Below, one piece after another: positions 5,382-53,937 of a DNA stretch of 60,588 bases; position 1 is the stretch's first letter, and each line of letters starts with the position of its first letter. The translations under genes and the position numbers were made by a program. The notes under the pieces were generated by a model. It had not been told where the DNA came from. It did no database searches and saw nothing but the letters and a program-made list of their open reading frames with translations. The stretch comes from Miniimonas arenae (GTDB taxonomy: Bacteria > Actinomycetota > Actinomycetes > Actinomycetales > Beutenbergiaceae): assembly GCF_006351005.1 (NCBI RefSeq), contig NZ_VENP01000016.1:1-60588 (forward strand). Reading direction: 5' to 3'.

Positions 5382-5914
5382 CGCGCTCCTCCGAAGGAGT
5401 CGGGGGTGGTCTGGGAGGGGGTGGGGGTGGGGAACGGGGTGGCGGGCGAGGTGGGCGCGGCCGTGGCCGCGGGGATGAGGGGTGCGGCGTTGGCCGTCGT
5501 CACGCCGACCGCCGACGTCGGGACACCGGATGGCGGGGCGGCCGCCGCGCCACTCACCGATGCGGCCCGGTCCCGGACCAGCACGGCGAGCTCGTCTGGG
5601 CCGAGCCCGAGCGACCGCGCCTCGGCGAGCAGGGGATCGACGAACCGGTCGGCGAACGCCGCGCGACGCTCGGCCAGCACGGCGGCGCGTGCTCCGGTCG
5701 CGACGAACATGCCGATGCCGCGCTGCTTGTAGATCACGCCCTTGTCCACGAGCAGACCCACTCCCTTCGCGGCCGTTGCGGGGTTGATCCGGTAGAACGC
5801 GGCGAGCTCGTTGGTCGAGGGTGCGCGCGTCTCCTCCGGCAGGCTGCCGTCCAGGATCGAGTCCTCGATCCCTTCGGCGATCTGCAGGAACAGCGCCCGA
5901 CCCTCCTCGATCAC
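5378..5914 (-). CDS. GntR-family (YtrA subfamily) transcriptional regulator
   Basis: 178-aa regulator. The winged-helix domain occupies about residues 1-75 and includes the recognition segment PSTNELAAFYRINPATAAKG and wing KQRGIGMFV. A short helical region follows, as in YtrA proteins that lack a large ligand domain. The last 55 residues are an unusual Pro/Ala/Thr-rich tail (TPFPTPTPSQT), probably disordered. The GTG start has a strong ribosome binding site (GGAGGACTC). First gene of the operon; an inverted repeat 25 bp upstream is the likely autoregulatory operator. Confidence 0.88.
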   Translation of the reverse strand: MIEEGRALFLQIAEGIEDSILDGSLPEETRAPSTNELAAFYRINPATAAKGVGLLVDKGVIYKQRGIGMFVATGARAAVLAERRAAFADRFVDPLLAEARSLGLGPDELAVLVRDRAASVSGAAAAPPSGVPTSAVGVTTANAAPLIPAATAAPTSPATPFPTPTPSQTTPDSFGGAR

Positions 5915-5938
5915 GAGTCCTCCGCGGTTCGCCGGTTA

Positions 5939-5956
5939 GTTACCTGAGTAGGTAAC
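5939..5956. promoter_or_regulatory. GntR (YtrA-type) operator, inverted repeat
   Basis: GTTACC-N6-GGTAAC (5939-5944 and 5951-5956) is a perfect 6-bp inverted repeat just upstream of the GntR gene. On the minus strand a TTGATC -35-like box lies upstream, so a bound regulator would cover the start-proximal promoter. Autoregulation is inferred. Confidence 0.65.
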
Positions 5957-6004
5957 CATAGAAGCCTCGCCTCGATCAAGGGGTTCCGCATGACGTCGCC
6001 ATCC

Positions 6005-6375
6005 CGATCGTCAGCGCTGTGGCCGCGACGAGGCCTGGGCTGTCGGGGGTGCGGAGCGCGGGAGCCGCACGAATCCGCGGGTCACGACGCGGGTCGCGGT
6101 GCGACGGGCGACCACAAGCCGGAAGGCGCGGACGCTGCACAGCCACAGCGCTGTGGCTGTGCAGCGTCGGAACCACCGTGTCCGTGCAAGGCGCCAGAGG
6201 CTGTGAATCCGCGGGATCACGCCGTTTCCGAGACGCCATCCGGGTCGCCGGCCGCGCCAGTGGGGCAACAGCGCTGTGGCTGTCCAGTGGCGGCACCGCG
6301 TTGGCCGCGCAAGGCCCAAGGCGCCAGGGGCTGGGACTCCCGGGGGTCACACCGTTCCCGAGACGTCATCCGGGG
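6005..6375. repeat. Degenerate ~130-bp tandem units, each with an AGCGCTGTGGC centre
   Basis: The 680-bp gap between the GntR gene and the carotenoid operon holds no convincing gene. It contains three diverged units. Their AGCGCT centres are at 6015/6016, 6149/6150 and 6272/6273. The last two units also share CCGAGACGYCATCC (6228-6241 and 6358-6371, 130 bp apart) and a GGCGCCAG-GGCTG segment. The middle unit contains a 38-bp perfect palindrome. The rest of the gap (6410-6594) shows nothing I can name. Confidence 0.7.
6131..6168. repeat. 38-bp perfect palindrome
   Basis: Reading out from the centre at 6149/6150, 19 bases on each side are exact complements (left arm starts GACGCTGCACAGCC, right arm ends CAGCGTC). 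There is no loop, so it can form a cruciform or act as a dyad for a dimeric protein. A partial copy of the right half recurs around 6270-6285. Confidence 0.95.
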
Positions 6376-6594
6376 CGCTGACCGCGCCCGTCGAGCCAGA
6401 GCAGTGTGAGGTCCATCGCGGGCGGCTGCGGGCGCTCGGGCAGGGGCAAGGGCGCCTCCACGTCCTGGACGGCCGGCTGACCCGAGGCGCACCCCAGATC
6501 GCAGGTCACCACCTCGGCGACCCGGCCGGACGTCTCGCAGGCTACGCGGACCCGACCCGCTGGGCCACCGGTCTGTCCGGACCGCGACCCAGCC

Positions 6595-8130
6595 CTAAGC
6601 CGCGCTCCCGACCATCTCGGCCACGATCCGCGCCGACAGCATCACGAGCGGCAGCCCGCCGCCCGGGTGTGCGGACCCGCCCACGAGGTGCAGCCCCTCC
6701 ACCGGGCCGCGGTTGGCCGGCCGCAGGAACGCGGCGAGCGGCCCGTTCGAGGACGTCCCGTAGATCGAGCCGCCGGGCGTGAGGGTCGCGCGCTCGAGGT
6801 CGGCGGGCGTGCGGACGAGCCGCTGCACCAGGTACGGCCGCACGTCGAGCCCGCGCGAGGCGAGGACTGCCAGCACGTGGTCGGCGTAGGCGTCGGCGAG
6901 GCCGGGCGCGCGCCAGTCGCACCCGCGGGCCGGATCGTGTCGCGGCGCGTTCACGAGCACGAACCAGGCACCCGCACCGGCCACGCCGTCGGGAAGCACC
7001 GCGGGATCGTCGGGGGCCGTCACGTAGACGGTCGGGCGCCGCACCGGCCGCGGCCGCGCGCCCACCGCCCGCGCCCCGAGCGACGGGAAGATCGCGTCGA
7101 ACTCGCCGTCGTAGTCCTCCGCGAACAGCACGCGGTGGTGCACCCCCCGCAGCTCCTCCGGCAGCCCCTCGAACGCGAGCAGCAGCACGAACCCGCCGAG
7201 CGACGGCGTCGCGAGCCCCACGCGGACGCGCGCCGCGGCCGTGGCGAGCCGCGTGCGCAGGGGGGCCTCGCCGTCGAGCATCCCGTAGACCGAGGCGGCG
7301 TCCGCGTTGGCGACGACGACGTCGGCGGGCATCCGCTCGCCGTCGGACGTCACCACGCCGCTCACCCGCCCGTCCGCCTGCTCGATCCGCGCGACCCGCA
7401 CCCCCGTGTGCACCCGCGCACCGAGCGACTCGGCACGCTCGCGCACCGCGCGCGCGATCTCGCCGAGTCCGCCCGGCACGTACCAGGAGCCGTACTCCTG
7501 CTCGGCGAACGGCACCGTGACCAGCGGCGACGGCGCCCGCCGCGGATCGCTGCCCGTGTAGGTCGCGTAGCGGTCGAGCAGCATCACCAGGCGCGGGTCG
7601 CGCAGGCTCTGCGCGCCGTACGCGCGCAGCGACAGCCACGGCGCCACCTCCGCGAGCCCGACGCCGGAGCTCACCATCGCCGGCAGCGTCGCGGCCGTGA
7701 TCGGCGAGGAGAGGAACGGCTCGCGCACCACGTGCCACATCCGCTCGGCGCGGGCGAGCAGGTCCGCCCACTGCGCGCCGCGACCCGGCCCGAGCGCGGC
7801 GTCCAGCGCGGCGGGGATCTCCTCGCGCCGGCCGGGCAGGTCGAGCACGGTGCCGTCGCCGAACGTGTAGCGGCAGGCGGTCTCGAGCCGCTCCAGGCGC
7901 AGCCCGGCCGGCGGCCCGCCGGTCGCCTCGAACAGCTCGCTGAGCACGTCGGGCATCGTGAGCAGCGACGGTCCCGTGTCGAAGGAGTAGCCCCGCCAGC
8001 GCTCGACGGCGAGCTTGCCACCCACGTCGGGCGCCTGCTCCAGCACGGTCACCTCGTGGCCGCCCGCGGCGAGACGCGCAGCGGCGGCGAGGCCTCCGAG
8101 GCCGGCCCCGACCACGACGACGCGGCTCAT
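6595..8130 (-). CDS. Phytoene desaturase-family carotenoid dehydrogenase/oxidase (second CrtI-type enzyme)
   Basis: 511-aa FAD-dependent amine-oxidase-fold protein. The dinucleotide-binding motif GAGLGGLAAAARLAAGGHEVTVLEQ starts at residue 8, and the CrtI C-terminal signature (VGGSAHPGGGLPLVMLSARIV, read in two parts) lies near the end. Last gene of the carotenoid operon; its ATG overlaps the stop of the cruF gene. Two CrtI paralogs beside CruF suggest this one is a later-step enzyme, such as a 3,4-desaturase (CrtD) or a carotene oxidase, acting on lycopene or its hydrate. Which paralog makes lycopene is inferred from gene order only. Confidence 0.85.
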   Translation of the reverse strand: MSRVVVVGAGLGGLAAAARLAAGGHEVTVLEQAPDVGGKLAVERWRGYSFDTGPSLLTMPDVLSELFEATGGPPAGLRLERLETACRYTFGDGTVLDLPGRREEIPAALDAALGPGRGAQWADLLARAERMWHVVREPFLSSPITAATLPAMVSSGVGLAEVAPWLSLRAYGAQSLRDPRLVMLLDRYATYTGSDPRRAPSPLVTVPFAEQEYGSWYVPGGLGEIARAVRERAESLGARVHTGVRVARIEQADGRVSGVVTSDGERMPADVVVANADAASVYGMLDGEAPLRTRLATAAARVRVGLATPSLGGFVLLLAFEGLPEELRGVHHRVLFAEDYDGEFDAIFPSLGARAVGARPRPVRRPTVYVTAPDDPAVLPDGVAGAGAWFVLVNAPRHDPARGCDWRAPGLADAYADHVLAVLASRGLDVRPYLVQRLVRTPADLERATLTPGGSIYGTSSNGPLAAFLRPANRGPVEGLHLVGGSAHPGGGLPLVMLSARIVAEMVGSAA

Positions 8131-9116
8131 CGGGGATCTCCGCCGCCCGGAGTGCCCCGGGTGTCTGGAGTGCCCGGGGTGTCTGGAGTGCGCTGGTTGC
8201 GCGGGGTGTCCGGGGCACGCGGCCCGAACCGCAGCCGCCCGCGCCACAACGTGACGAGCAGCGGCACGGCGATCACCCCCATCGCGAGGCCGCCCGCGAG
8301 CGCCACCGAGGGTCGCGGCCAGAACGTGAGGTTGCCCGCGACGCACGTGAGCCACGTCCACACGTAGACCGCGTAGGGGATGGCGTCCGGCCACTGCGTA
8401 GCGCGGGTGCCGACGTCGCCCGCCCCCGGGGTCGCCGCGCGCCGCGCCCAGGTGTAGGACGCCGAGATGAGCACCGCCATCGCGAACGACACCCCGAGCC
8501 AGCCCGCGTAGTTGGTGAGCGGGATGCCGGGTGTGCCGGGCAGCGACGGTTCCGGGTTGGCCCAGCCCCAGTTGCCGGCGTCGACCATCTGCGGGTCGAG
8601 GAACACGTCCCACGCCGTGAGCGCCCACGCCGCCACCAGGTGCCGCGCGACCCAGCGCCACCACGCTTCGCGTCCCGTGCCCGGCACTCGTCGGACCGGC
8701 ACGAGCCGGCGCGCCACCACCCAGGCGGGGTACGCGAGCGTCGTCCAGGCGAGCAGCACCAGCGCCGAGACCCCGAGCACCGAGGGCCCGAGCCCGCCCG
8801 TGTAGGCATACTCGCCGAACGGGAAGCCGGTCGCGACCCCGACCGCCTCCGCGACCAGGCCGAGCGCCGCCACGCCGCCGCCGACGCCGAGCGCGAACCG
8901 CCAGCCGCCCACCGAAGCGGCGTGCAGCACCGCGGTGAGCGCCATGAGGCACACGCTCGCCACGGTCTGGCGCAGCGTGCCGCCCCACGTGATCGCGAAG
9001 CTCGCCTGCACCGCGAGCGCGGCCAGCAGCGCGATCCACGCCACCTGGCCCGCGACCACGCGCCCCATCGGCACGCGGTGCGCGGCGGGCGGCCGGACCG
9101 CGGTCGACCTCAGCAT
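8127..9116 (-). CDS. cruF: CruF-type carotenoid 1,2-hydratase (DUF422 membrane protein)
   Basis: 329-aa membrane protein with about seven helices. It shows features of the carotenoid biosynthesis protein family PF04240: FPFGEYAYTGGLGPS, a WDVFLDPQM motif and NYAGWLGV. Known CruF proteins add water across the terminal psi-end double bond of acyclic carotenoids. The start ATG 9116 lies 7 bp after the upstream crtI stop; ATG 9068 is possible. The last 30 residues are a TPDTPGTPDT-type tail encoded by an 18-bp tandem repeat (GGAGTG at 8149, 8167 and 8185) placed just before the next start codon. No cyclase gene is present, which fits an acyclic hydroxylated product. Confidence 0.85.
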   Translation of the reverse strand: MLRSTAVRPPAAHRVPMGRVVAGQVAWIALLAALAVQASFAITWGGTLRQTVASVCLMALTAVLHAASVGGWRFALGVGGGVAALGLVAEAVGVATGFPFGEYAYTGGLGPSVLGVSALVLLAWTTLAYPAWVVARRLVPVRRVPGTGREAWWRWVARHLVAAWALTAWDVFLDPQMVDAGNWGWANPEPSLPGTPGIPLTNYAGWLGVSFAMAVLISASYTWARRAATPGAGDVGTRATQWPDAIPYAVYVWTWLTCVAGNLTFWPRPSVALAGGLAMGVIAVPLLVTLWRGRLRFGPRAPDTPRNQRTPDTPGTPDTRGTPGGGDPR

Positions 9117-9123
9117 GCGCGGC

Positions 9124-10992
9124 TCACGACGGCGGACCCGCGTCCGGCTCGACGCCCGCCTCGCGCGTCGGCTCGCTCGCGAGGCCCGGCGCCGGACGAT
9201 CGCTCGACCCGGCCCCCGGCTCGCTGGACTGCGCGGGCGCCGGCTCGGGCAGCGGCCCGCCCGAGGCGTCCCCGCGCACCAGCTTGAGCACGAGCTCGGC
9301 CGAGATGAGGCACATCGGCACGCCGACCCCGGGCGAGGCCGTGCCGCCCGCGTAGTACAGCCCGCGCACGCGCCGCGAGCGCGGGCCACGCCGGAACATC
9401 GCGGACTGCGCGAGCGTGTGCGCGGGCCCGAGCATGCCGCCGCGCCAGGAGTGGTAGTCGTCGGCGAAGTCGGCGGGCCCGATCGTGTGCCGCACCACGA
9501 CGCGTTCGGCGAGGTCGGTCACGCCCGTCCAGCGCGCGATCTGCTCGACGGCGAGGTCGGCGATCCGCTCGACGCGCGGGTCCGCGCGGCGAGCGCCGGT
9601 AGACCCGGCAGACCCGGCAGATCCGGCCGACCCGGCCGACGCGGTCGACTCGTCCGACCCGACCGACGCGCTCGGTGCGATGGTGGCGTCCGTGCGCTCG
9701 CCGTCGGGCGACTCGCTCTCGGAAGGCGCGCCGTCGCGCACGAACGGCGCCGGGTACCCGGTCCCGTGCCCCAGCCCGACGTCGCCCGAGACCGGGATGA
9801 GCACGAAGAGGTTCTCGTGCCCGGGGGGTGCGACGCCGTCGTCGGTCGCGGACGGCCGGCAGACGTACAGCGACGTCGGCGAGGGCAGCTCGCCCCCGCC
9901 GAACACGGCGTCGAGGCTGCGCTCCCAGTCCTGCGTGAACGCCAGGGTGTGGTGCGGCAGCTCGGGCAGCGCACCGCGCACGCCGAGCATCACGAGGACG
10001 GCGGAGGGCCCGGGCGTGACCCGCCGCCAGGAGCGCTCGGGGTAGGTGCGGTAGGTGGGCGGCACGAGCCGGGTCTCGGTGTGGTGCAGGTCGGCGGTCG
10101 AGACGACGACGTCGGCCGGCGTGCGGTGCGCGCGCCCGCGGACGTCGGTCCACTCCACGCCGCGCACGTGACCGCGGCGGCCGCGTCCGGTGACCGCGAG
10201 GGCGTCGACGGTCGCGTCGAGCGTGATCCGGACCCCGGCCGTGCGGGCGAGCCGCTCCAGCGCCGCCACGACCCCGGTGAACCCGCCGACCGGGTAGCGC
10301 ACGCCGTCGGACAGGTCGACCTGGCTCATGAGGTGGTAGATGGCCGGGGCGCGCCGCGGGTCCACGCCGAGGAACACGGCGGGGTAGCTCAGCACCTCGC
10401 GCAGCACGGGATCGGCGAACCGCCGTCCGGCGTGCCCCGCGAGCGAGGTCACGAGCCACCGCGCGAGGGCCGGCGCCGCGCGCCGGACCTCGGGGTCGAG
10501 GAACGGCTGCACCGAGGTGAACGGGTTGTAGAGGAACGCGGCCAGCGACAGGTCGAGGGCCTGCCGCGCGGTGGCGAGGTACTCCGCGAGCGCCGCGCCG
10601 GCGCCGGGCTCGCGCGCCTCGAACGCGGCGCGAGCGGCCGGTTCGCCCCAGGGCACGTCGAAGGACTCGACGTCGTCGGGGCCGACGCGCGAGAGCGGCC
10701 CGCCCTGTGCGCCGGGCCCGTGCAGCACGCGGTAGCCCGGGTCGAGCGTGCGCAGGTCGAGCTCGGCCTCGGCGCTCGTGCCGAGCATCCGGAAGAAGTG
10801 GTCGTACTGCGCGGGCATGAGGTACCAGGACGGACCGGTGTCGAACACGAAGCCCGCGTCGTCGATCCGGCCCGCGCGTCCGCCCACGCGGGAGCCTCGC
10901 TCGAGCACGTGCACGTCGTGCCCGTCGCGCGCGAGCAGGGCGGCGGTCGCGAGGCCGGCGACACCCGCGCCGATCACGATCACGCGCGCCAC
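9124..10992 (-). CDS. crtI: Phytoene desaturase
   Basis: 622-aa FAD enzyme that desaturates phytoene towards lycopene. The nucleotide-binding motif VIGAGVAGLATAALLARDGH starts near residue 7 and the substrate-side motif DTGPSWYLMP follows. It is about 100 residues longer than usual CrtI. An insertion of roughly 50 residues rich in Ser, Ala, Gly and Asp (SAGSAGSAGSAG, encoded near 9595-9660) lies before the C-terminal FAD segment, and there is a Pro/Ser/Glu-rich tail. GTG 10992 overlaps the crtB stop by 13 bp and has a GGGGGG ribosome binding site; GTG 11001 is possible. Directly downstream of crtB, it is the likeliest first desaturase. Confidence 0.9.
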   Translation of the reverse strand: MARVIVIGAGVAGLATAALLARDGHDVHVLERGSRVGGRAGRIDDAGFVFDTGPSWYLMPAQYDHFFRMLGTSAEAELDLRTLDPGYRVLHGPGAQGGPLSRVGPDDVESFDVPWGEPAARAAFEAREPGAGAALAEYLATARQALDLSLAAFLYNPFTSVQPFLDPEVRRAAPALARWLVTSLAGHAGRRFADPVLREVLSYPAVFLGVDPRRAPAIYHLMSQVDLSDGVRYPVGGFTGVVAALERLARTAGVRITLDATVDALAVTGRGRRGHVRGVEWTDVRGRAHRTPADVVVSTADLHHTETRLVPPTYRTYPERSWRRVTPGPSAVLVMLGVRGALPELPHHTLAFTQDWERSLDAVFGGGELPSPTSLYVCRPSATDDGVAPPGHENLFVLIPVSGDVGLGHGTGYPAPFVRDGAPSESESPDGERTDATIAPSASVGSDESTASAGSAGSAGSAGSTGARRADPRVERIADLAVEQIARWTGVTDLAERVVVRHTIGPADFADDYHSWRGGMLGPAHTLAQSAMFRRGPRSRRVRGLYYAGGTASPGVGVPMCLISAELVLKLVRGDASGGPLPEPAPAQSSEPGAGSSDRPAPGLASEPTREAGVEPDAGPPS

Positions 10993-12020
10993 GGGTGCCA
11001 CCCCCCGTCCAGCAGCGGCGCCGGGTCGGCGAGGACCGCGCGCGCCACGAGACGCAGCTTGACCGGCGTGGGGACGCTCACCCGTTCGCGGTACAGCTCG
11101 TGCACCGGGGTGGCCGCGATCCGCGCGGTGAGCTCGCCGAACAGCAGGCGCGCCGCGCGCACGGCGGGGCGCACGTCGGCCGGCAGGAGCGCGAGGCCCT
11201 CGTCGGCGGTGCGCAGGTCGGCGCGGATCCGCCGCACCCACGCGCGCTTGCCCGCCTCGTCCAGCGGCGCGTCGAGCGGCCCGTCCGGCGGCTCGTCCGG
11301 CCGGCCGGCGCGGGCGCCACCCGCGCTCGGCGCGCCGCCGTGCGCAGCACCAGCACCAGCACCAGCACCAGCACCAGCACCAGCACCAGCACCGTTCCCC
11401 TCACCCACCGCCGGCAGATACCCCCGCCCCAGCCGCCCTGCGTCGTCGGCGAGGTCACGAAGGAAGTTGACGTTCTGAAAGGCCGCCCCCAGCGCCCGGG
11501 CACCCCGCACGAGAACCGCGTGCTCGCCGTCGGACACGCGATGCCCGTCGAGGTAGATCGGCAGGCACATGAGGCCGACCACCTCGGCCGAGCCGTACAC
11601 GTACCGCGCCTGCTCGGCGGGCGTGAGGGAGCGCGGGTCGAGGTCCATCCGCATGGACGCGAAGAACGGCTCGACCACGTCGCGCGTGATGCCGCACGCG
11701 CGGGCCGTGGCGGCGAACGCGTGCAGCACCAGGTCGGCCGCGAACCCCGTGGCCATCGCCTCGTAGGTCGCGGCCTCGTAGGCGTCGAGGGCGGCGCGCT
11801 GGGCGTCAGCGTCGAGGCCGGCCTCGGCGGCCACGCCGTCGACGATCTCGTCCGCGACGCGGACCATCGCGTAGACGGCCCGCACGTGGTCGCGGCAACG
11901 GTCGGGCAGCAGCGCGGTCGCGAGGCCGAACGAGGTCGAGTAGCTGCGGATCACGCCGTCGGCGGCCACCCGTGCGGCACGCGTGTAGAGCGCGAGGCGG
12001 GCGGCGTCGGGGGCCGTCAC
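10980..12020 (-). CDS. crtB: Phytoene synthase
   Basis: 346-aa enzyme that condenses two geranylgeranyl diphosphates to phytoene. The first Asp-rich motif is in AMVRVADEIVDG and the second in NFLRDLADDAGRLGRGY. Between the second motif and the C-terminal helices lies a low-complexity insert, Gly-Ala repeated, from eight copies of the hexamer GGTGCT (AGCACC on the plus strand, 11346-11393). These GGT/GCT codons contrast with the GGC/GCC used elsewhere. GTG 12020 overlaps the crtE stop as GTGA, showing translational coupling. Confidence 0.92.
   Translation of the reverse strand: MTAPDAARLALYTRAARVAADGVIRSYSTSFGLATALLPDRCRDHVRAVYAMVRVADEIVDGVAAEAGLDADAQRAALDAYEAATYEAMATGFAADLVLHAFAATARACGITRDVVEPFFASMRMDLDPRSLTPAEQARYVYGSAEVVGLMCLPIYLDGHRVSDGEHAVLVRGARALGAAFQNVNFLRDLADDAGRLGRGYLPAVGEGNGAGAGAGAGAGAGAGAAHGGAPSAGGARAGRPDEPPDGPLDAPLDEAGKRAWVRRIRADLRTADEGLALLPADVRPAVRAARLLFGELTARIAATPVHELYRERVSVPTPVKLRLVARAVLADPAPLLDGGWHPWRA
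11346..11393. repeat. Hexanucleotide repeat AGCACC x8 inside crtB
   Basis: Eight exact tandem copies of AGCACC. On the coding strand they give (Gly-Ala)8 in a loop of phytoene synthase. Unit gain or loss would keep the reading frame, so length should vary between strains without inactivating the gene. Confidence 0.95.
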
Positions 12021-13096
12021 GACCTCCGCTCCGCGATGGCGCGCGCGACGCCCTCGAGCACCGCGCCGAACGCTGCGTAGCCGGGCTGCTCGCCGATCCG
12101 GGCGGCCTGCGCGAGCGCGTCGGCCAGGTGCATCGCCGCGTCCTGCTCGACGGCGGCGCGTGCCCCGGAGGACTCGATGAGGTCGACCGCCTCCTGGGCC
12201 TCACGCGCCGTGAGGTCACCCCGGCCGAGCAGCGACGCCAGCCGCGGCCAGTCCGCGCCGGCGCGCACCCACGCCACTAGCGCGGTGACCTTGCCCTCGC
12301 GGATGTCGGAGTAGGGGTCCTTGCCCACCTCCTCGGGGTCGCCGAACACCCCGAGGACGTCGTCCTGCAGCTGGAAGGCCAGGCCGAGGGACGTGCAGTA
12401 CTCCTCCAGGCCGGTCGGCACCCGCGCGCCCGCGACGGCGAGCGCCAGCAGGAGCGGTAGCCGGACCGTGTAGACGCCCGTCTTGCGCGCCGACATCGCG
12501 AGCACGGCCTCGACGTCGGGCGAGGTCTCGGGCAGCGAGTACAGGACGTCCGCGAGCTCGCCGGCCACCGACTGCGCGAGCGTCTCGCCGAGCACGTCGA
12601 GCATCCGCAGCCGTACGTCGTGCGGCACGTCGAGCCGGGCGACGAGCTGGTGCGCGTCCGCGAGCAGCACGTCCGCGGCGAGGATGCCGGCGGCCTCGCC
12701 GAGCCGCCGGTGCGACGCGCGGCCCAACTCCTGCCCGGCCACCTCGTGCGCGCGGCCGATGAGGTTCGGCTCGCCGCGGCGCAGCACGTCGTGGTCGATC
12801 ACGTCGTCGTGCAGCAGGAAGGCGGAGTGCAGCAGCTCGACGGCGACGGCGAGGTCGAGCCTGGCGCCGGAGTCGACCGCGCGGTGCTCCTCGCCGTCGA
12901 GCGCCTCGGCGGCGACGAGGAGGATCGCGGGGCGGACGAGCTTCCCGCCGCGCAGGCTGTCCCCGGCCACGCGCCAGAGCCGCTCCGACTCCGGACCGCT
13001 CGCACCCGCGACGCAGCGCGCGACGTACTCCTCCAGCCGAGCGCGCACCTGGGCGAGCGCGCTCTCCGTCGACACCGGCAGGGGCAGTGTGGGCAC
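12017..13096 (-). CDS. crtE: Geranylgeranyl diphosphate synthase
   Basis: 359-aa trans-isoprenyl diphosphate synthase that makes the C20 precursor for the pathway. The first Asp-rich motif DDVID is at about residues 97-101, preceded by LLHSAFLLH. The second is LQDDVLGVFGD. The FxxxD-distal small residues fit a C20 product but do not prove it. GTG 13096 follows GAGGTGG with 5-nt spacing; GTG 13105, three codons upstream, has no such site. First gene of the five-gene carotenoid operon, with an inverted repeat just upstream. Confidence 0.92.
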   Translation of the reverse strand: MPTLPLPVSTESALAQVRARLEEYVARCVAGASGPESERLWRVAGDSLRGGKLVRPAILLVAAEALDGEEHRAVDSGARLDLAVAVELLHSAFLLHDDVIDHDVLRRGEPNLIGRAHEVAGQELGRASHRRLGEAAGILAADVLLADAHQLVARLDVPHDVRLRMLDVLGETLAQSVAGELADVLYSLPETSPDVEAVLAMSARKTGVYTVRLPLLLALAVAGARVPTGLEEYCTSLGLAFQLQDDVLGVFGDPEEVGKDPYSDIREGKVTALVAWVRAGADWPRLASLLGRGDLTAREAQEAVDLIESSGARAAVEQDAAMHLADALAQAARIGEQPGYAAFGAVLEGVARAIAERRS

Positions 13097-13109
13097 GCAG
13101 TCCACCTCG

Positions 13110-35363: not shown

Positions 35364-35525
35364 GTGCCCGACTGCGAGCCCGCCCCCGGCGGTGCGGGCA
35401 CCTCCGCGTCGGCCGCCTGAGCGAGGGTCCGCGCCGTTCCACGGACGGCTCCCGCTGTCCACGGGGGGGACGGCATGACCGCTGGCCCTGGCGAGCGGCG
35501 CGACCGTGCCGGCAACCCGCGCCAT

Positions 35526-35743
35526 GCCAGCGATCCGTACCGATCGCCCGCGCCGTGCCAGCGATCTGTGCCGGCAGCCCCCGCGATGCCAGCGATCCGT
35601 GCCGGCAGCCCCCGCGATGCCAGCGATCCGTGCCGGTTCGGGGCACCGACCCGCGACAGATCGCTGTATCCACCGTCGGATGCGCGACAGACCGCTGAGC
35701 TCGCCGGCCGACCGACTGCTCAGCCGAGCGGTCGATCGCTGGT
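35526..35743. repeat. CAGCGATCYGT phased inverted array, 31-bp period
   Basis: Left arm: GCCAGCGATCYGTRCC at 35526, 35557, 35588 and 35619, exactly 31 bp apart. Right arm: inverted GACAGATCGCTG at 35655 and GACAGACCGCTG at 35686, again 31 bp apart, with a weaker GGTCGATCGCTGG at 35731. Linkers match between left units 2 and 3 but differ between arms. It fills the end of the 356-bp gap between two convergent genes and enters the 3' end of the aspartoacylase-like gene. Confidence 0.9.
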
Positions 35744-45586: not shown

Positions 45587-46375
45587 ATGACACTCACGGC
45601 GGACAGGACCGTGCAGGAGTGGCAGGAACGGATCACGCCGGACCGGTTCGCCGGTCGCACGGTGATCGTCACCGGGGCGGGGTCCGGGATCGGGCGCGCG
45701 ACGGCGTCGCGCATCGCCCGCGAGGGCGGCCGGGTCGTGGCGGTCGACGTCGCCGCGGACCGGCTGGACGCGGTGGTGGGCGAGCTCGGGGAGGCGATCG
45801 TCGCCGTCGGGGGCGACATCACGTCCACCGAGGACGTGGCGCGGATCGTCGCCGCGGCCGGCGAGCAGATCGACGGACTGGCGAACGTGGCCGGGATCAT
45901 GGACGACTTCGCACCGGTGCACGAGGTCACCGACGCGATGTGGCAGCGCGTGCTGGCGGTCAACCTCACGGGATCGTTCCAGCTGATGCGCGCCGTGCTG
46001 CCCGCGATGCTCGCGGCTGGGCACGGGTCGATCGTCAACGTGACGTCCGAGGCGGGGCTGCGCGGCAGCGCCGCCGGCACCGCGTACACGACGTCGAAGC
46101 ACGCCGTGATCGGGCTGACGAAGAGCGCGGCCGTCATGTACGCACCGCACGGCATCCGGGTGAACGGCGTCGCGCCGGGTGGGGTGGCGACCAACATCGC
46201 GATCCCGGCGATCAACCCGACCGGCATGGGCCGGCTGCAGGCGTTCCACGCGATCCTGCCGCCGCCCGCGCAGGCCGAGCACCTCGCGGCCGCGATCACC
46301 TACCTGCTCAGCGACGACGCGATCAACGTCTCGGGCGCGATCCTGCCCTCGGACGGGGGGTGGTCGGCGCAGTAG
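45587..46375 (+). CDS. Short-chain dehydrogenase/reductase (SDR)
   Basis: 262-aa classical SDR. The NAD(P) motif VTGAGSGIGRATASRIA starts near residue 27. NVAGIMD replaces the usual NNAG, VNVTSEAG carries the catalytic serine position, and YTTSKHAVIGL gives Tyr and Lys. D in VAVDVAADR suggests preference for NAD. Together with the KstD-like gene it may act on a steroid or other cyclic ketone/alcohol. ATG 45587 follows a GA-rich stretch (AGAAGGAGAAGG) containing its ribosome binding site. Confidence 0.92.
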   Translation: MTLTADRTVQEWQERITPDRFAGRTVIVTGAGSGIGRATASRIAREGGRVVAVDVAADRLDAVVGELGEAIVAVGGDITSTEDVARIVAAAGEQIDGLANVAGIMDDFAPVHEVTDAMWQRVLAVNLTGSFQLMRAVLPAMLAAGHGSIVNVTSEAGLRGSAAGTAYTTSKHAVIGLTKSAAVMYAPHGIRVNGVAPGGVATNIAIPAINPTGMGRLQAFHAILPPPAQAEHLAAAITYLLSDDAINVSGAILPSDGGWSAQ

Positions 46376-46509
46376 GCGGGCGGCGCGCGGCTGGCCGGCC
46401 CAGCGGGCGGGCGGCGCGCGGCTGGCCGGCCCAGCAGCCCGGCCCAGCACGGCCGGCCGGCCCAATCGCCGGGCACCGCACGGCCGGCCGGCCCACTCGC
46501 CGGGCACCG
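46375..46509. repeat. GGCCGGCCCA array, exact 31-bp period
   Basis: GGCCGGCCCA starts at 46393, 46424, 46455 and 46486, each 31 bp after the last. The first two units share a GGCGGGCGGCGCGCGG flank and the last two share ATCGCCGGGCACCGCACGG-type flanks. It begins directly at the SDR stop codon and leads into TTGACTGGT element B. Positions 46726-46900 show nothing I can name. Confidence 0.85.
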
Positions 46510-46552
46510 CACGGCTCACGGGTCCCGCGCGGTGCCCGTGGGCCCGGGGAGC

Positions 46553-47803: not shown

Positions 47804-47910
47804 GCGCAGCCCGCCTTCACCGAGGTCACGGCGCCTGCGCCACCGGTCACCACGATCACCCGGCCGCGCTGGTCGACCCCGCGCGCGCTCACGCGCAGCC
47901 CGCCCTCGTC
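47745..47910. repeat. Imperfect duplication of the SDR start region
   Basis: The ~75 bp that hold the SDR start and first 20 codons (about 47745-47820) recur, diverged, at about 47840-47910: both have CCACCGGTCACCACGA, a GTCGA(A/C)CCCGCGC stretch and CTCACGCGCAGCCCGCC. The second copy creates a 30-codon reading stub (VSARGVDQRGRVIVVTGGAGA) just after the monooxygenase stop. Confidence 0.8.
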
Positions 47911-49347
47911 ACCGCGCAGCCGTCCGCACGGCCGCACTGCCCGCCGCGACCACCGCCGACGGCGAGCCGACCTCGGCAGCCTCGCTCGCCGTCGGGCCCG
48001 CGTCGCCACGCGCGAAGCGCCCGCCGCGCCCGCTGGACGCCGCCGCACCCGCGGCCGGCGACGTGAGTGGCCAGCCCAGCATCCGGCTCACCCGGCGCAG
48101 GTAGCGCGTGTAGCCGTCGGAGTCGACGTACCCGGTGTGCCGTGGCGAGGAGTCGAACGTGAGGCCGGCGGACAGGTCGGGCCGGTCGGTGCGGATCATC
48201 GCGGCGAACCGCGCGGCCTGCGGCGTGCGGTGGGCGCGCCCGTCGAGGTAGGCGGCGATGAGGTGGGCCTGCTGGTCGGACAGCGTGAACGCGCCCGAGT
48301 TCGTCTCGATGTAGCCGACGCCGAACAGCCCCGTGTGCTCGCGCGAGGCGAAGTTGAGGTACAGGTCCGGGTGCTGCGCGTTGCCGAACAGGTCCTGCGC
48401 GACGGGCACCCGGTGCTCGTAGCCCGTGGCGAGCACCACGACGTCGAACTCCTCGCTCGTGCCGTCGGTGAACGTCACGGTGCGCCCGGCCGTGTCCGCG
48501 ATGCCCGGTCGGGCCACGATGTCGCCGCGCTGGAGGTGGTGCAGCAGAAGCGAGTTCACGATCGGGTGGGTCTCGAACAGCTTGTGGTCCGGCTTCTGCA
48601 GGCCGAGCCGCTCGGTGTCCCCCACCAGCAGGCGCAGGAGCGGCTGGATCGCCGCGCGCTCCACCTGCTTGGGCAGGAACGAGCCCTTGCCGCCGACCAC
48701 GTCCGAGGGCACCCCGAAGACGTGCTTGGGGATGAACCAGTAGCCGCGGCGCATCGAGATCGCGGCGTAGTCGGCGTTGCGCGCGGCGTCGCACGCGATG
48801 TCGCAGCCGGAGTTGCCGCCGCCGACGACGAGCACCAGCTGCCCCGCGAACTCCCGCGGGCTGCGGAACGTCTGGCTGTGCCGCACCTCGCCGTCGTACG
48901 TCCCGGGGAGCGCGGGCAGGCGCGGGTGCCACTGCGAGCCCGTCGACACCACCACGGCGCCATGCCGGGAGCTCGTGCCGTCGGTCCGCGTCACGACCCA
49001 CGCGCTGCCGTCCCGCTCGACGCTCTCGACGCACACGCCGGTCTCCACGCGCTGGTCGAGGCCGTAGTGGGCCGCGAAGGCGCGCAGGTAGGCGAGCACG
49101 TGGTCGTGCCGCGGGTAGTCCGGGTAGCTCGCGGGCATCGGGCAGCCGCTGTAGCCCGACGTCGTGCGGCTGGAGATCAGGTGGGCCGACTCGTAGATCG
49201 GCCGCCCGGGTTGTCGATGTCCCAGACCCCGCCCACCCCCGTGTGCCGCTCGAGGTGGGTGTACTCGATGCCGCGCTCGGCGAGGGCTCGGGCCCCGGCG
49301 AGGCCGGCCGGACCGGCTCCGACGATGCAGACGGGAGACGACGTCAC
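47909..49347 (-). pseudogene. Flavin-containing monooxygenase (Baeyer-Villiger type), 1-nt frameshift
   Basis: N-terminal part in one frame: SSPVCIVGAGPAGLAGARAL and HTGVGGVWDIDNPG. The rest is in another frame: RPIYESAHLISSRTTSGYSG, an NADPH-site VVGGGNSGCDIACDAARN, and ATGYEHRVPVAQDLFG. Adding one G in the GGG at 49208-49210 joins them as IDNPG-RPIYES, giving about 478 residues, normal for FMO/BVMO proteins. GTG 49347 has AAGGAG. Probably an NADPH flavoenzyme acting with the SDR downstream. Real mutation or sequencing error is undecided. Confidence 0.87.
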
Positions 49348-49752
49348 GGCGCTCCTTCGGCTCGCGAGGGCGCACCGGTGCGCCCTCATGCGTTCGGTCG
49401 GTGCCGCTTCCCCGCGGAACCGCTTCGATCCCCCCGCCAGCGATGCTAGGGGTCCGACGGCGAACCCGAGCGGTCCTGTCCTGCCAGGATCGGGGACCTC
49501 ACCGGCCAGGGCGGCTGGCCGGTGTCCGATCTGAGCGGTCGCTGTGCGCGGGCTAGGTCACCCTGTGCGTCTGCTGGGCGCGCGACGACGAGCGCGGCAT
49601 CCACGAGCGCGCACCTGCGAGCTCGCCCCCTACGAGCACGTCACCTCGCCGCCGGCAGGTAGCGCACCAGGTGGGGCGCGAGCGTCGCGGACGTCGGGCT
49701 GGGCGGAACGGCGGGGAGCATCCGGCCACTCTAGGTGGCTCACCATGTCCGG
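49348..49752. other. 405-bp gap with a 22-bp palindrome
   Basis: GAGGGCGCACC-GGTGCGCCCTC (49366-49387) is a perfect 22-bp palindrome centred about 30 bp upstream of the monooxygenase start. It could be an operator, or a hairpin at the 5' end of the mRNA. I see no gene in the rest. Confidence 0.6.
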
Positions 49753-50086
49753 TCAGTGCACCCCGCGGACCCTCCCGAGCGCCACCGCTCCCCCCGCCGC
49801 GCACGCCGCGGCGAGCAGGAACAGCGGCCGGAAGCCGCCCGCCGCGGCCACGAGCAGCGCGCCGAGCAGCGGCGCCACGGCCTGCGGCACCGCGAGCGCG
49901 ACGTTCATGATCCCCAGGTCCTTGCCGCGCGCGGCCGGGTCCCTGCGCCATCCAAACGCCGAGCCAGGCGAGGGCGAACGCGCCGATCCAGCCGCCGGTG
50001 ACGCGGCGCGTGGGGTCGGCGAGCGACGCGACGCGGGCGCCGGCCACCGCCCCGACGACCACCATGTCCTTGCCGTCTGCGCCCAT
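49753..50086 (-). pseudogene. MFS transporter remnant
   Basis: Only the last ~110 residues of a major facilitator protein are left, in two frames. The first frame has [37 protein letters not shown]; the second has KDLGIMNVALAVPQAVAPLLGALLVAAAGGFRPLFLLAAACAA as a typical MFS end. The frame changes near 49945. The N-terminal half is absent and 50087-50328 shows no trace of it. A decayed exporter gene is the simplest reading. Confidence 0.72.
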
Positions 50087-50328
50087 CGCGCCCCTTCGCC
50101 GTCGTGCACCGTGCTGTGCCGCCGTCGTGCACCCCCGTGCCGGCCCCACGCGCCGAGGCGTGCCCGGCGTCGCGCTGGGAGGACTGTAGGCGACCGCACG
50201 CCCCATCGGGCAGCGCCCCGACGCTGCCGTATCAGCGCGCCGGGCGGGCGCCTCATCGTCGTCGAGCTCGGATCGCCCGGGCGACGGCGACGCGGCCCGG
50301 GGAGGTCGCGCGTACGGAGGGAGCAGCG

Positions 50329-51657
50329 ATGACGTGGTTGGGCTGGGAGAGCCTGGGCGGAGGCCTGAGCTCGGGACCGGCTGTCAGCTCGTGGTCGAGC
50401 GGACGGCTGGACGTGTTCGTGCGCGGGACGGACAACGCCCTGTGGCACAAGTGGTTCGCGGGCGGCTGGTCCGGCTGGGAGTCCCTCGGCGGGGTCCTCA
50501 CCTCGGACCCCGCGGCCGTCTCGTGGAGCGACGGCCGCATCGACGTGTTCGTCCGGGGCACCGACAACGCCCTGTGGCACAAGTGGTTCGACGGCGGCTG
50601 GTCCGGCTGGGAGTCGCTCGGCGGGATCCTCACGTCAGGTCCCGCCGTCGCGTCGTGGGCGCACGGCCGGCTCGACGTGTTCGTCCGCGGGACAGACAAC
50701 GCGCTGTGGCACAAGTGGTTCCGGCGTGGGACGTTCGGGATCGGCGGCGGCTGGAGCGGCTGGGAGTCGCTCGGCGGAGTCCTCACGTCCGACCCGGCGG
50801 CCGTCTCGTGGAGCGAGGGTCGGATCGACGTGTTCGTCCGCGGCACCGACAACGCCCTGTGGCACAAGTGGTTCGCGGGCGGCTGGAGCGGCTGGGAGTC
50901 CCTCGGCGGAGTTCTCACCTCAGGACCGGGCGTGTCCTCGTGGGCGCCGGGCCGGCTGGACGTCTTCGTCCGCGGGACCGACAACGCGATGTGGCACAAG
51001 TGGTTCCAGGCCGGCTGGTCCGGCTGGGAGTCGCTCGGCGGGGTCCTCACCTCCGACCCCGACGCCGTCTCGTGGGGGCCGAACCGGATCGACTCGTTCG
51101 TCCGGGGAACCGACGGTGCGCTGTGGCACAAGTGGTGGGCCCTCGTGCCCACGGTGCGGCTGCACGCGAAGATCGTCACGAACCCGAACGTCGCGCTCGC
51201 CACGAGCGTGGCCAACATGGTGAACGTGTATGCCACGCGCGGCATCCGCGTGCAGCTCGCCTCGGTGGAGTCGATCTCCGTGCCGGCGTCGCTCAACACG
51301 GTCGACGTCAACCCGTGCGTCCAGGGCAACGCGACGGCGGAGCAGCTCGCGCTCTTCGCGTTCCGCAACGGCGTGGGCTCGCTCGACGTCGCGGCGTACT
51401 TCGTGCAGGCGACGAACCCGCCGCTGAACGGCTGCGCGTCGCACCCGAACGGGCTGCCCAGCGTGGTCATCGCCTCGGGTGCGAGCCAGTGGACGCTGGG
51501 GCACGAGGTCGGGCACGTGCTCGGCCTGCCGCACGTCAACGACAACAACCGGCTCATGACGGGCAACGGCACGTTCAACATCACCAACCCTCCGCCCGAC
51601 CTCGTCGGGTCCGAGGGGTCGACGATGGACGCCAGCGCGTTCAGCCAGAACATCTGA
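50329..51657 (+). CDS. PLL-type beta-propeller lectin fused to a metzincin-like metalloprotease
   Basis: 442-aa two-part protein. Residues 5 to about 275 hold six 44-residue repeats, pattern GWESLGG...[23 protein letters not shown]; the third has an 8-residue insert (RRGTFGIG). They resemble PLL/fucose-lectin-like propeller blades that bind sugars. Residues about 276-442 contain [11 protein letters not shown] at 392-402, the HExxHxxGxxH zinc motif, then NRLMTGN, a probable Met-turn. No signal peptide or membrane helix is seen. ATG 50329 has GGAGGGAGC. A HEAT-like gene follows 21 bp later in the same direction. Confidence 0.85.
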
Positions 51658-51678
51658 GAATCCGGAGAGGTGGGAGAG

Positions 51679-52314
51679 ATGACTGTGTCACTCCAGGACG
51701 TGCGGGCGCTGCTCGACGTCGACGAACCCGACTACGTGTTCGCGAGCCTGCTCGGCCCGGCCGCGCTGCCGCACCTGCACGAGCTCGTGACGACCGGGGA
51801 GCCCATGCTCGCCTCGAAGGCGGCCTACCTGGCCGGCCTCATCGAGGGGGGCGGCGAGGTGGTCGCGACCGCGGCCGCGAGCGAGGAACCGCTCGTGCGC
51901 ATCGCGGCCGCTGGCACCGCGGTCAACCTGTCCGCGCACGAGGCCGAGCCGATCCTCGCCTCGCTCGTGGACGACGGCGAGCTCGGCGTCCGCGTCACGG
52001 CCGCCAAGGCGGTGCTCGCCGAGACCTCGGCGGTGTCGGCCGAGTCGGCACCGGCGCTCGTCGCGCGGGCCAACGAGGTCGGCGTCGAGCGCGAGCTCGA
52101 GCCGGTCGAGGTGCCCTCGCTCGAGGTCGCCTACCCGCACGGCGGGCCGCTCGGTGGTGCGCTCGGTGGCGCAGGCGACGGCGAGCCCGGTGGCGACGGC
52201 GCAGAGTCGTCGACGGGTCCGGGTGGCATGCCCGAGGCCGCCGACGGCGTCGAGGACGTCTCGAGCGCGAGCAAGCTGTCGACGCAGGACGAGGAGGGCG
52301 GCGAGTCCGAGTGA
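51679..52314 (+). CDS. HEAT-repeat-like protein with acidic tail
   Basis: 211-aa protein. Residues about 1-130 form helical pairs typical of HEAT repeats (PHLHELVTTGEPMLASKAAYLAGLI, LVRIAAAGTAVNLS, ELGVRVTAAKAVLAET). The last 70 are Gly/Ser/Glu/Asp-rich and probably disordered, with no signal peptide. ATG 51679 follows GAGAGG. The 21-bp distance from the lectin-protease gene implies one transcript. It could bind or hold in check its partner, or present it for release; this is inference. A phased TGACT array starts at its stop codon. Confidence 0.78.
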   Translation: MTVSLQDVRALLDVDEPDYVFASLLGPAALPHLHELVTTGEPMLASKAAYLAGLIEGGGEVVATAAASEEPLVRIAAAGTAVNLSAHEAEPILASLVDDGELGVRVTAAKAVLAETSAVSAESAPALVARANEVGVERELEPVEVPSLEVAYPHGGPLGGALGGAGDGEPGGDGAESSTGPGGMPEAADGVEDVSSASKLSTQDEEGGESE

Positions 52315-52364
52315 CTCCGACTGACTCGACTGATGCCGAGTGACTGGAGTGACTCCGAGTGACT
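52312..52364. repeat. Helically phased TGACT array, six copies
   Basis: TGA(C/T) motifs start at 52312, 52322, 52331, 52341, 52350 and 52360, spacings 10, 9, 10, 9 and 10. The first overlaps the stop codon of the HEAT-like gene. Most units read TGACTCCGAG or close. Confidence 0.85.
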
Positions 52365-52371
52365 CCGAAGC

Positions 52372-52467: not shown

Positions 52468-53937
<1,470 letters not shown>

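Follow-up and report, generated by a model that had tools for sequence, protein, structure and literature searches.

A compact metzincin with exchangeable front modules and a constant HEAT-repeat neighbour: a possible two-gene effector module in Miniimonas arenae and other bacteria

What is the task of a protease that carries a lectin-type propeller at its front and no recognisable export signal, and of the HEAT-repeat protein encoded immediately behind it? The question is raised by a gene pair on the plus strand of a stretch of 60588 nucleotides from Miniimonas arenae (assembly GCF_006351005.1, contig NZ_VENP01000016.1, positions 1 to 60588), hereafter called the window. The first gene (50329–51657, with the ATG at 50329 and the stop codon ending at 51657) encodes a fusion of 442 residues, in which a front module of six lectin-type blades (residues 1–271, 50329–51141) is followed directly by a catalytic metzincin domain (residues 272–442, 51142–51654). 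The second (51679–52314, with the ATG at 51679 and the stop codon ending at 52314) encodes a cysteine-free HEAT protein of 211 residues; it starts 21 bp after the stop codon of the fusion and is preceded by a purine-rich leader with a Shine-Dalgarno-like stretch (51659–51678), where a GTG at 51670 provides an alternative start. Positions, spacing and the nature of both genes had been given in a preliminary description of the locus, and the open reading frames (ORFs), together with profile and fold matches, bear them out. Both genes are single-copy in the genome. The same description had regarded the lectin–protease fusion as the unit; the combination of lectin and protease without export signal, next to an inhibitor-like neighbour, does fit the present results, but the conserved unit is the protease with its HEAT partner. 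With a confidence just above even, we read this unit as a two-gene effector composed of a metzincin warhead without propeptide, an exchangeable front module, and a HEAT inhibitor or immunity protein.

The protease and the HEAT protein form a real two-gene module. Genome contigs were scanned with the protease domain alone, and therefore without bias toward loci holding the HEAT partner; 101 pattern matches led to 37 relatives, which, together with L003 (from a survey of the window's own family), L043 (from an actinobacterial survey) and two plasmid records, make up 41 loci besides that of the window, distributed over Bacteroidota, Pseudomonadota, Acidobacteriota and Actinomycetota; Algoriphagus and its kin account for many of them. 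A HEAT gene is located directly downstream in 41/41. The partner was confirmed in 38 of 38 loci (worst E 2.1e-8), with stop-to-start gaps of mostly 4–56 nt; in the two plasmid loci the downstream gene is annotated as a HEAT repeat domain-containing protein, and L043 retains the pair at great distance and without a front module. The worry that the HEAT gene might prove unlinked in other genomes can thus be set aside. In each of 26 carrier genomes, protease (E ≤ 5e-40) and partner (E ≤ 5e-23) gave a single strong match apiece, and the two are adjacent in 26/26; the other HEAT matches are weak (E 1.2e-6 or worse), and the one extra protease match is a 24-position motif. Within the genus of Algoriphagus zhangzhouensis (genome G424), 20 of 59 genomes carry the protease, with the partner adjacent in all 20; one of these carriers (G759) has the protease in two pieces and the HEAT frame open. 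A full-length partner was found in none of the 39 protease-free genomes of this genus (0/39), three of which give weak partial partner matches inside frames of 1147–1176 residues. The pairwise distances of protease and partner are correlated (r 0.69 for 42 loci, 0/2000 permutations; r 0.37 for 18 less similar loci, 0/5000). L026 (Niabella) carries a broken copy, with front module and protease spread over more than one frame and stop codons interrupting the HEAT match.

The occurrence of the pair is sporadic. In a Bacteroidota sample the protease was present in 1/296 genomes, the centre genome itself, and in 0/295 further ones; within the window's family it was present in 2/24, the window's genome among them. 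The actinobacterial survey returned 17/396 genomes at E ≤ 0.001, with the domain covered in three only (G000, G153 and G068, the window's genome included; the G153 match shares coordinates with L007), while the 14 other matches are stretches of 27–57 positions at the zinc motif and were left out of the family. Pattern matches in viral contigs (49) gave no confirmed relative and phage records held none, so that a viral origin of the pair was rejected. A plasmid search with the HEAT protein of the window found nothing, and since both plasmid protease matches do have a HEAT gene, this search is too insensitive to speak for absence. Clustering of the neighbouring genes, printed for 17 of 40 loci, revealed no third gene common to most, and some farther ORFs match across phyla (for example L004/L005/L010, L007 and Algoriphagus loci, and L012/L020/L032).

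The protease domain shows the zinc motif HExxHxxGxxH, the Met-turn and the fold of a metzincin. The zinc motif (residues 392–402, 51502–51534) is complete, and H392, E393, G395, H396 and H402 are invariant in 42/42 homologues, whereas the glycine of the motif, Gly399, is variable (D in L006, N in L010). Invariant in the same 42 are the Met-turn R408-L409-M410 (51550–51558), N420-P423, and the cysteines C330 (51316–51318) and C369 (51433–51435). Modelled by AlphaFold2 with 23 relatives, the catalytic domain reached pLDDT 92.3 and pTM 0.90, and this confident metzincin model, with the invariance of the motif, speaks against an incomplete zinc site, which had been named in advance as a finding that would refute the assignment. 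Foldseek ranked fragilysins on top (E 1.5e-6), and the VIA matches comprised snake-venom metalloproteinases, ADAMs, ulilysin and fragilysins (Z 13–15, root-mean-square deviation (rmsd) about 2.4–3.3, about 150–162 residues aligned). By sequence, on the other hand, neither M10 nor M12 could be assigned, both scoring below the Pfam cut-offs (Matrixin 18.7 versus 24, Reprolysin_5 15.5 versus 27); the fragilysin model gave 12.2 on the fusion against a cut-off of 190.7, a search of NCBIfam gave motif matches only, all below cut-off, and in PHROGs the fusion has a single weak match (E 0.023) and the HEAT partner none. The window's protease accordingly shares fold, zinc motif and Met-turn with the fragilysin, adamalysin and ulilysin metzincins, and differs from fragilysins and other metzincins in remaining under all curated cut-offs, in its length of 171 residues, in the lack of a secretion signal, in its obligate HEAT neighbour, and in having no propeptide that could be seen: the catalytic domain abuts the front module or, in L043 and L064, lies close to the N-terminus. 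A compact metzincin without propeptide needs another lock in the cytosol, for which the constant HEAT neighbour is the best candidate.

The HEAT partner is modelled as a helical solenoid, confidently to about residue 110–130. The window's protein alone stays below the Pfam HEAT_2 cut-off (21.1 versus 27.7); it is the family profile and the fold that identify HEAT repeats. The profile, built on alignment A2, retrieves alphaRep HEAT proteins (E 4.3e-34), and fold matches include an alphaRep protein (Z 13.2, rmsd 5.3, 140 aligned) and a phycocyanobilin lyase subunit from the CpcE/CpcF complex (Z 12.9, rmsd 3.2, 140 aligned). A2 and its counterpart for the protease, A1, each cover 23 of 39 loci, the window included. 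E16, Y19, L33, A48, R74, A76, A78 and V104 are uniform wherever the column is present (at least 38 of 42 partners, with L034 read from a later Met), and 38/42 partners are free of cysteine. In the model, E16 is part of the loop joining helices 1 and 2, and Y19 stands at the start of helix 2; this DEPDY loop (residues 15–19, 51721–51735) is a candidate contact with the protease. The acidic tail noticed early on is present in the window's partner, where residues 141–211 (52099–52311) form a glycine-rich stretch with 16 D/E, 1 K/R and 17 Gly that is modelled with low confidence; it is shared with L010 and not with most of the 23 aligned members, and is hence no general property of the family. Tandem repeats of 10/19 bp run across the stop codon of the HEAT gene (52306–52368).

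In the two-gene effector that we favour, the HEAT protein would bind the warhead and keep it from acting in the maker's cytosol, as an immunity protein or inhibitor replacing the absent propeptide. An obligate activator, a folding helper or a loading adaptor that serves folding, particle docking or export, with the rest of the effector reading kept, would account equally well for the strict adjacency and for a co-occurrence without orphans; furthermore, HEAT solenoids also act as adaptors and lyase subunits, as illustrated by CpcE/CpcF among the fold matches. That none of 39 relatives has an orphan partner is easier to explain if the partner protects its maker or is an obligate helper than if target strains keep it for immunity. 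Such a helper is nevertheless unlikely, though to be taken seriously, for in one relative an RHS protein is followed by the HEAT gene at the place of an immunity gene (see below), the partner is retained even where the protease has no front module, and a protease without visible propeptide is expected to require some lock.

The front module of the window's fusion resembles known lectins closely. Pfam DUF346 matches it in six stretches (81 bits versus a cut-off of 22), and its matches in the PDB are the PLL/PHL lectins of Photorhabdus (best E 1.4e-116). The blades begin at residues 5, 49, 93, 144, 188 and 232, and their pairwise identity is 0.68–0.97 with a mean of 0.81 (first 38 columns). Six closely similar blades had indeed been described, all of 44 residues; this spacing holds for five of them, blade 3 having 51. 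The blade sequence is of the PLL type, and the six blades counted from sequence fall short of the seven of the closed PLL propeller; among the relatives with DUF346, L010 has six blades and L040 seven DUF346 stretches. In the window's genome, the fusion gene is the only one in which DUF346 was found. PLLs, too, have no recognised signal peptide, and an extracellular fraction contained two of them (PMC12203525). These lectins stand alone and have seven blades, in contrast to the six-bladed, protease-fused and HEAT-paired propeller of the window, for which binding of sugars, in PLL-type lectins fucosylated or O-methylated ones, is a prediction.

Across the 42 loci the front of the protease is exchanged. 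LGFP repeats are found in 26, DUF346, FG-GAP and DUF6623 in three each, a bulb lectin in two, and an RHS protein, a Cys-rich WRFC repeat and an unnamed repeat in one each, while two loci (L043 and L064) have no front module. The labels come from Pfam for 12 fusions and, where LGFP is given, from a sequence motif; those of L005, L026, L037, L038 and of loci with no named module were assigned by the authors. The modules named by Pfam are mostly of adhesion, carbohydrate-binding or propeller kinds. The lectin is thus no constant part, since fronts of at least seven kinds occur and it is one of them. In a protease tree of 27 of the 42 rows (15 similar rows were dropped), DUF346 needs three changes, and a single clade is rejected (approximately unbiased test, p-AU 5.2e-05); by this tree the propeller was joined to the protease three separate times. 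LGFP and FG-GAP need two changes each, and all labels together 10 against the least possible 8; apart from these three modules, the labels track clades of the tree. Different fronts meet in sister pairs on starred branches, namely L010 (DUF346) with L003 (RHS) and L040 (DUF346) with L063 (WRFC), and the sister position of DUF6623 rows from Bacteroidota and Actinomycetota suggests transfer from one phylum to another. In the DUF6623-type loci L004 (5933–6430) and L038 (frame 5503–6450) the pair is followed by a stand-alone DUF6623-like gene, and L005 matches this gene.

That the fusion lacks a signal peptide had been proposed at the outset and agrees with a crude hydrophobicity measure, which gave 0.80 at M1 as compared to 1.92–2.58 for three E. 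coli signal peptides. By the same crude measure none of the plausible starts scored in relatives is signal-peptide-like; for L004, L005, L020, L026, L037 and L038 no usable start was listed, and the starts of L004, L005 and L038 were judged by eye. In L029 the first Met candidate is hydrophobic (1.90), but its relatives begin at the next Met. Starts of this kind would also suit an intracellular system, such as a regulated cytosolic protease or an anti-phage device, whose sensor would be the propeller or the LGFP repeats and whose regulator the HEAT protein, and PADLOC does give a weak HEAT-ARM match for the partner (E 0.0038, 12.6 bits). This we regard as very improbable. The protease has no PADLOC match, and a known defence system was rejected as an assignment on the strength of that search. 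Bulb lectins, PLL-type propellers and LGFP modules are usually encountered outside the cell or at its surface, which counts against a cytosolic device. Moreover, C330 and C369, the sole cysteines of the window's fusion, likely form a disulfide, and such a bond would imply action outside the cytosol.

Under the two-gene effector reading, the fusion, with its warhead joined to a front of sugar- or surface-binding type (in the window, the PLL-type propeller), would exit by lysis or by an unrecognised route. Once outside, it would be anchored by its front module to a target on another organism, either glycosylated or part of the wall, and its protease would cut surface proteins, with the HEAT partner left behind or diluted; a disulfide may form between the two invariant cysteines.

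For one relative a more specific exit can be suggested. In genome G008, from the window's own family, the protease constitutes the C-terminus of a 2110-residue RHS/YD-repeat protein (Pfam RHS 42 bits versus 22), and the HEAT gene lies 11 nt past its stop codon, that is, in the immunity position of RHS toxins. The plus-strand gene run includes Phage_base_V (25.8 versus 23.8) and PAAR (31.8 versus 27) matches, hub and sheath-initiator matches below cut-off, and, among the 10 proteins submitted, six that were unmatched or matched below cut-off only. A contractile particle is a possible release route here, with the protease at the tip of the RHS protein on a contractile-tail-like particle; the cluster could also be a prophage tail. 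Injection had been among the routes considered beforehand, and it is suggested for this relative, whereas no general link to contractile injection systems (CIS) was found.

The RHS version behind PAAR and Phage_base_V genes also invites the wider proposal that the pair is general cargo of contractile injection particles, the fronts docking the protease in or on an extracellular CIS (eCIS) or a tail-like particle. The window's genome does contain an eCIS locus (L093 on contig C98, 881–18166, with tube at 86.8 bits, sheath, baseplate J, base_V, an AAA protein and an eCIS_core protein), and a CIS tube match occurs in 15 of 33 carrier genomes. We nonetheless consider it improbable. The other 18 carriers gave no tube match; in the genus of G424 the tube is present in 8/20 genomes with the pair and in 15/39 without it; the window's fusion has no Pfam match to eCIS_core/DUF4157; the eCIS of its genome is on another contig than the pair; and the G008 cluster may, as stated, belong to a prophage. 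With neither an eCIS_core domain nor an association at the genome level, the fusion does not qualify as an eCIS effector, and eCIS cargo as a general requirement is unsupported, the tube being equally common with and without the pair.

Linkage of the pair, the metzincin fold with its complete zinc motif, the exchange of fronts and the single RHS/PAAR context are direct observations, from which inhibition, release, glycan docking, the disulfide and the target of the module are inferred. Several points weigh against an effector with an inhibitor. Inhibition, cleavage, sugar binding and toxicity are all deduced, and for the DUF6623 and LGFP fronts sugar binding is putative. The RHS context is found in 1 of 41 loci, and the two loci without a front module indicate that aiming can be dispensed with in some cases. 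Shared ancestry enters into the correlation between the distances of protease and partner, and the window, L043 and L064 are long branches on the protease tree. Finally, competitors are expected to keep immunity genes, and the absence of orphan partners in the 39 relatives is contrary to that expectation.

It is instructive to compare the pair with polymorphic toxins, which, in the accessible part of PMC3482391, comprise RHS proteins, zincins (Tox-MPTase1–5, HopH1) and Imm-HEAT proteins. Common to both is a C-terminal metallopeptidase with a small neighbour in the place of an immunity gene, and here a C-terminal toxin-type domain with a small gene directly downstream was found in 41/41 loci; the RHS version in G008, the HEAT fold of the partner and the bulb lectins near toxin modules are further likenesses. 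HEAT immunity proteins have been published for other toxins, being tied in that part of the source to Ntox34 and Tox-REase-7; it contains no mention of metzincins, and its metallopeptidase toxin rows show a dash in the apparent immunity column. Where polymorphic toxins combine one front with exchangeable C-terminal toxins, the present architecture is the reverse, with a constant warhead and varying fronts, no export determinant and no orphan partners. A second comparison is offered by the Marasmius oreades agglutinin (MOA), a cytoplasmic lectin–protease of a fungus whose nematotoxicity needs both activities, according to the portion of PMC8408931 at hand. It consists of a beta-trefoil lectin and a papain-like protease, and that portion mentions no HEAT partner; as compared with the propeller and metzincin of the window, MOA is an analogue and not a homologue, but it shows that a cytoplasmic lectin–protease fusion can be a defence toxin. 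In a search of one open library, no paper on the protease/HEAT pair was recognised.

More tentatively, and short of an even chance, the pair may represent a signal-less, AB-like class of effectors built in reverse to the polymorphic toxins, in which the metzincin is constant, a HEAT lock (perhaps with the DEPDY loop at the zinc cleft) replaces the propeptide, and fronts are exchanged across phyla for new targets. In any case, a metzincin family without assignment gains a constant and testable partner in four phyla. If the HEAT protein is an inhibitor, the module would pair a metzincin genetically with a protein inhibitor of its own and would explain how a protease without propeptide is kept in the cytosol; exchangeable lectin-type fronts, in turn, would make the role of signal-less bacterial lectins directly testable.

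The surroundings of the pair in the window show some further features. Upstream, a minus-strand frame (49753–50580) looks by eye like the C-terminal stretch of a major facilitator superfamily transporter, with no intact gene, and is perhaps a scar of rearrangement. Also on the minus strand, a flavin-monooxygenase-like gene (47909–49389) is split across two frames (49177–49389 and 47909–49138), which reflects either a broken gene or a sequencing error. Tandem repeat arrays of 31 bp and 21 bp occur at 35500–35636, 46361–46516 and 53710–53804, and a minus-strand gene run at 6595–13105, with desaturase- and synthase-like proteins, resembles carotenoid biosynthesis by eye.
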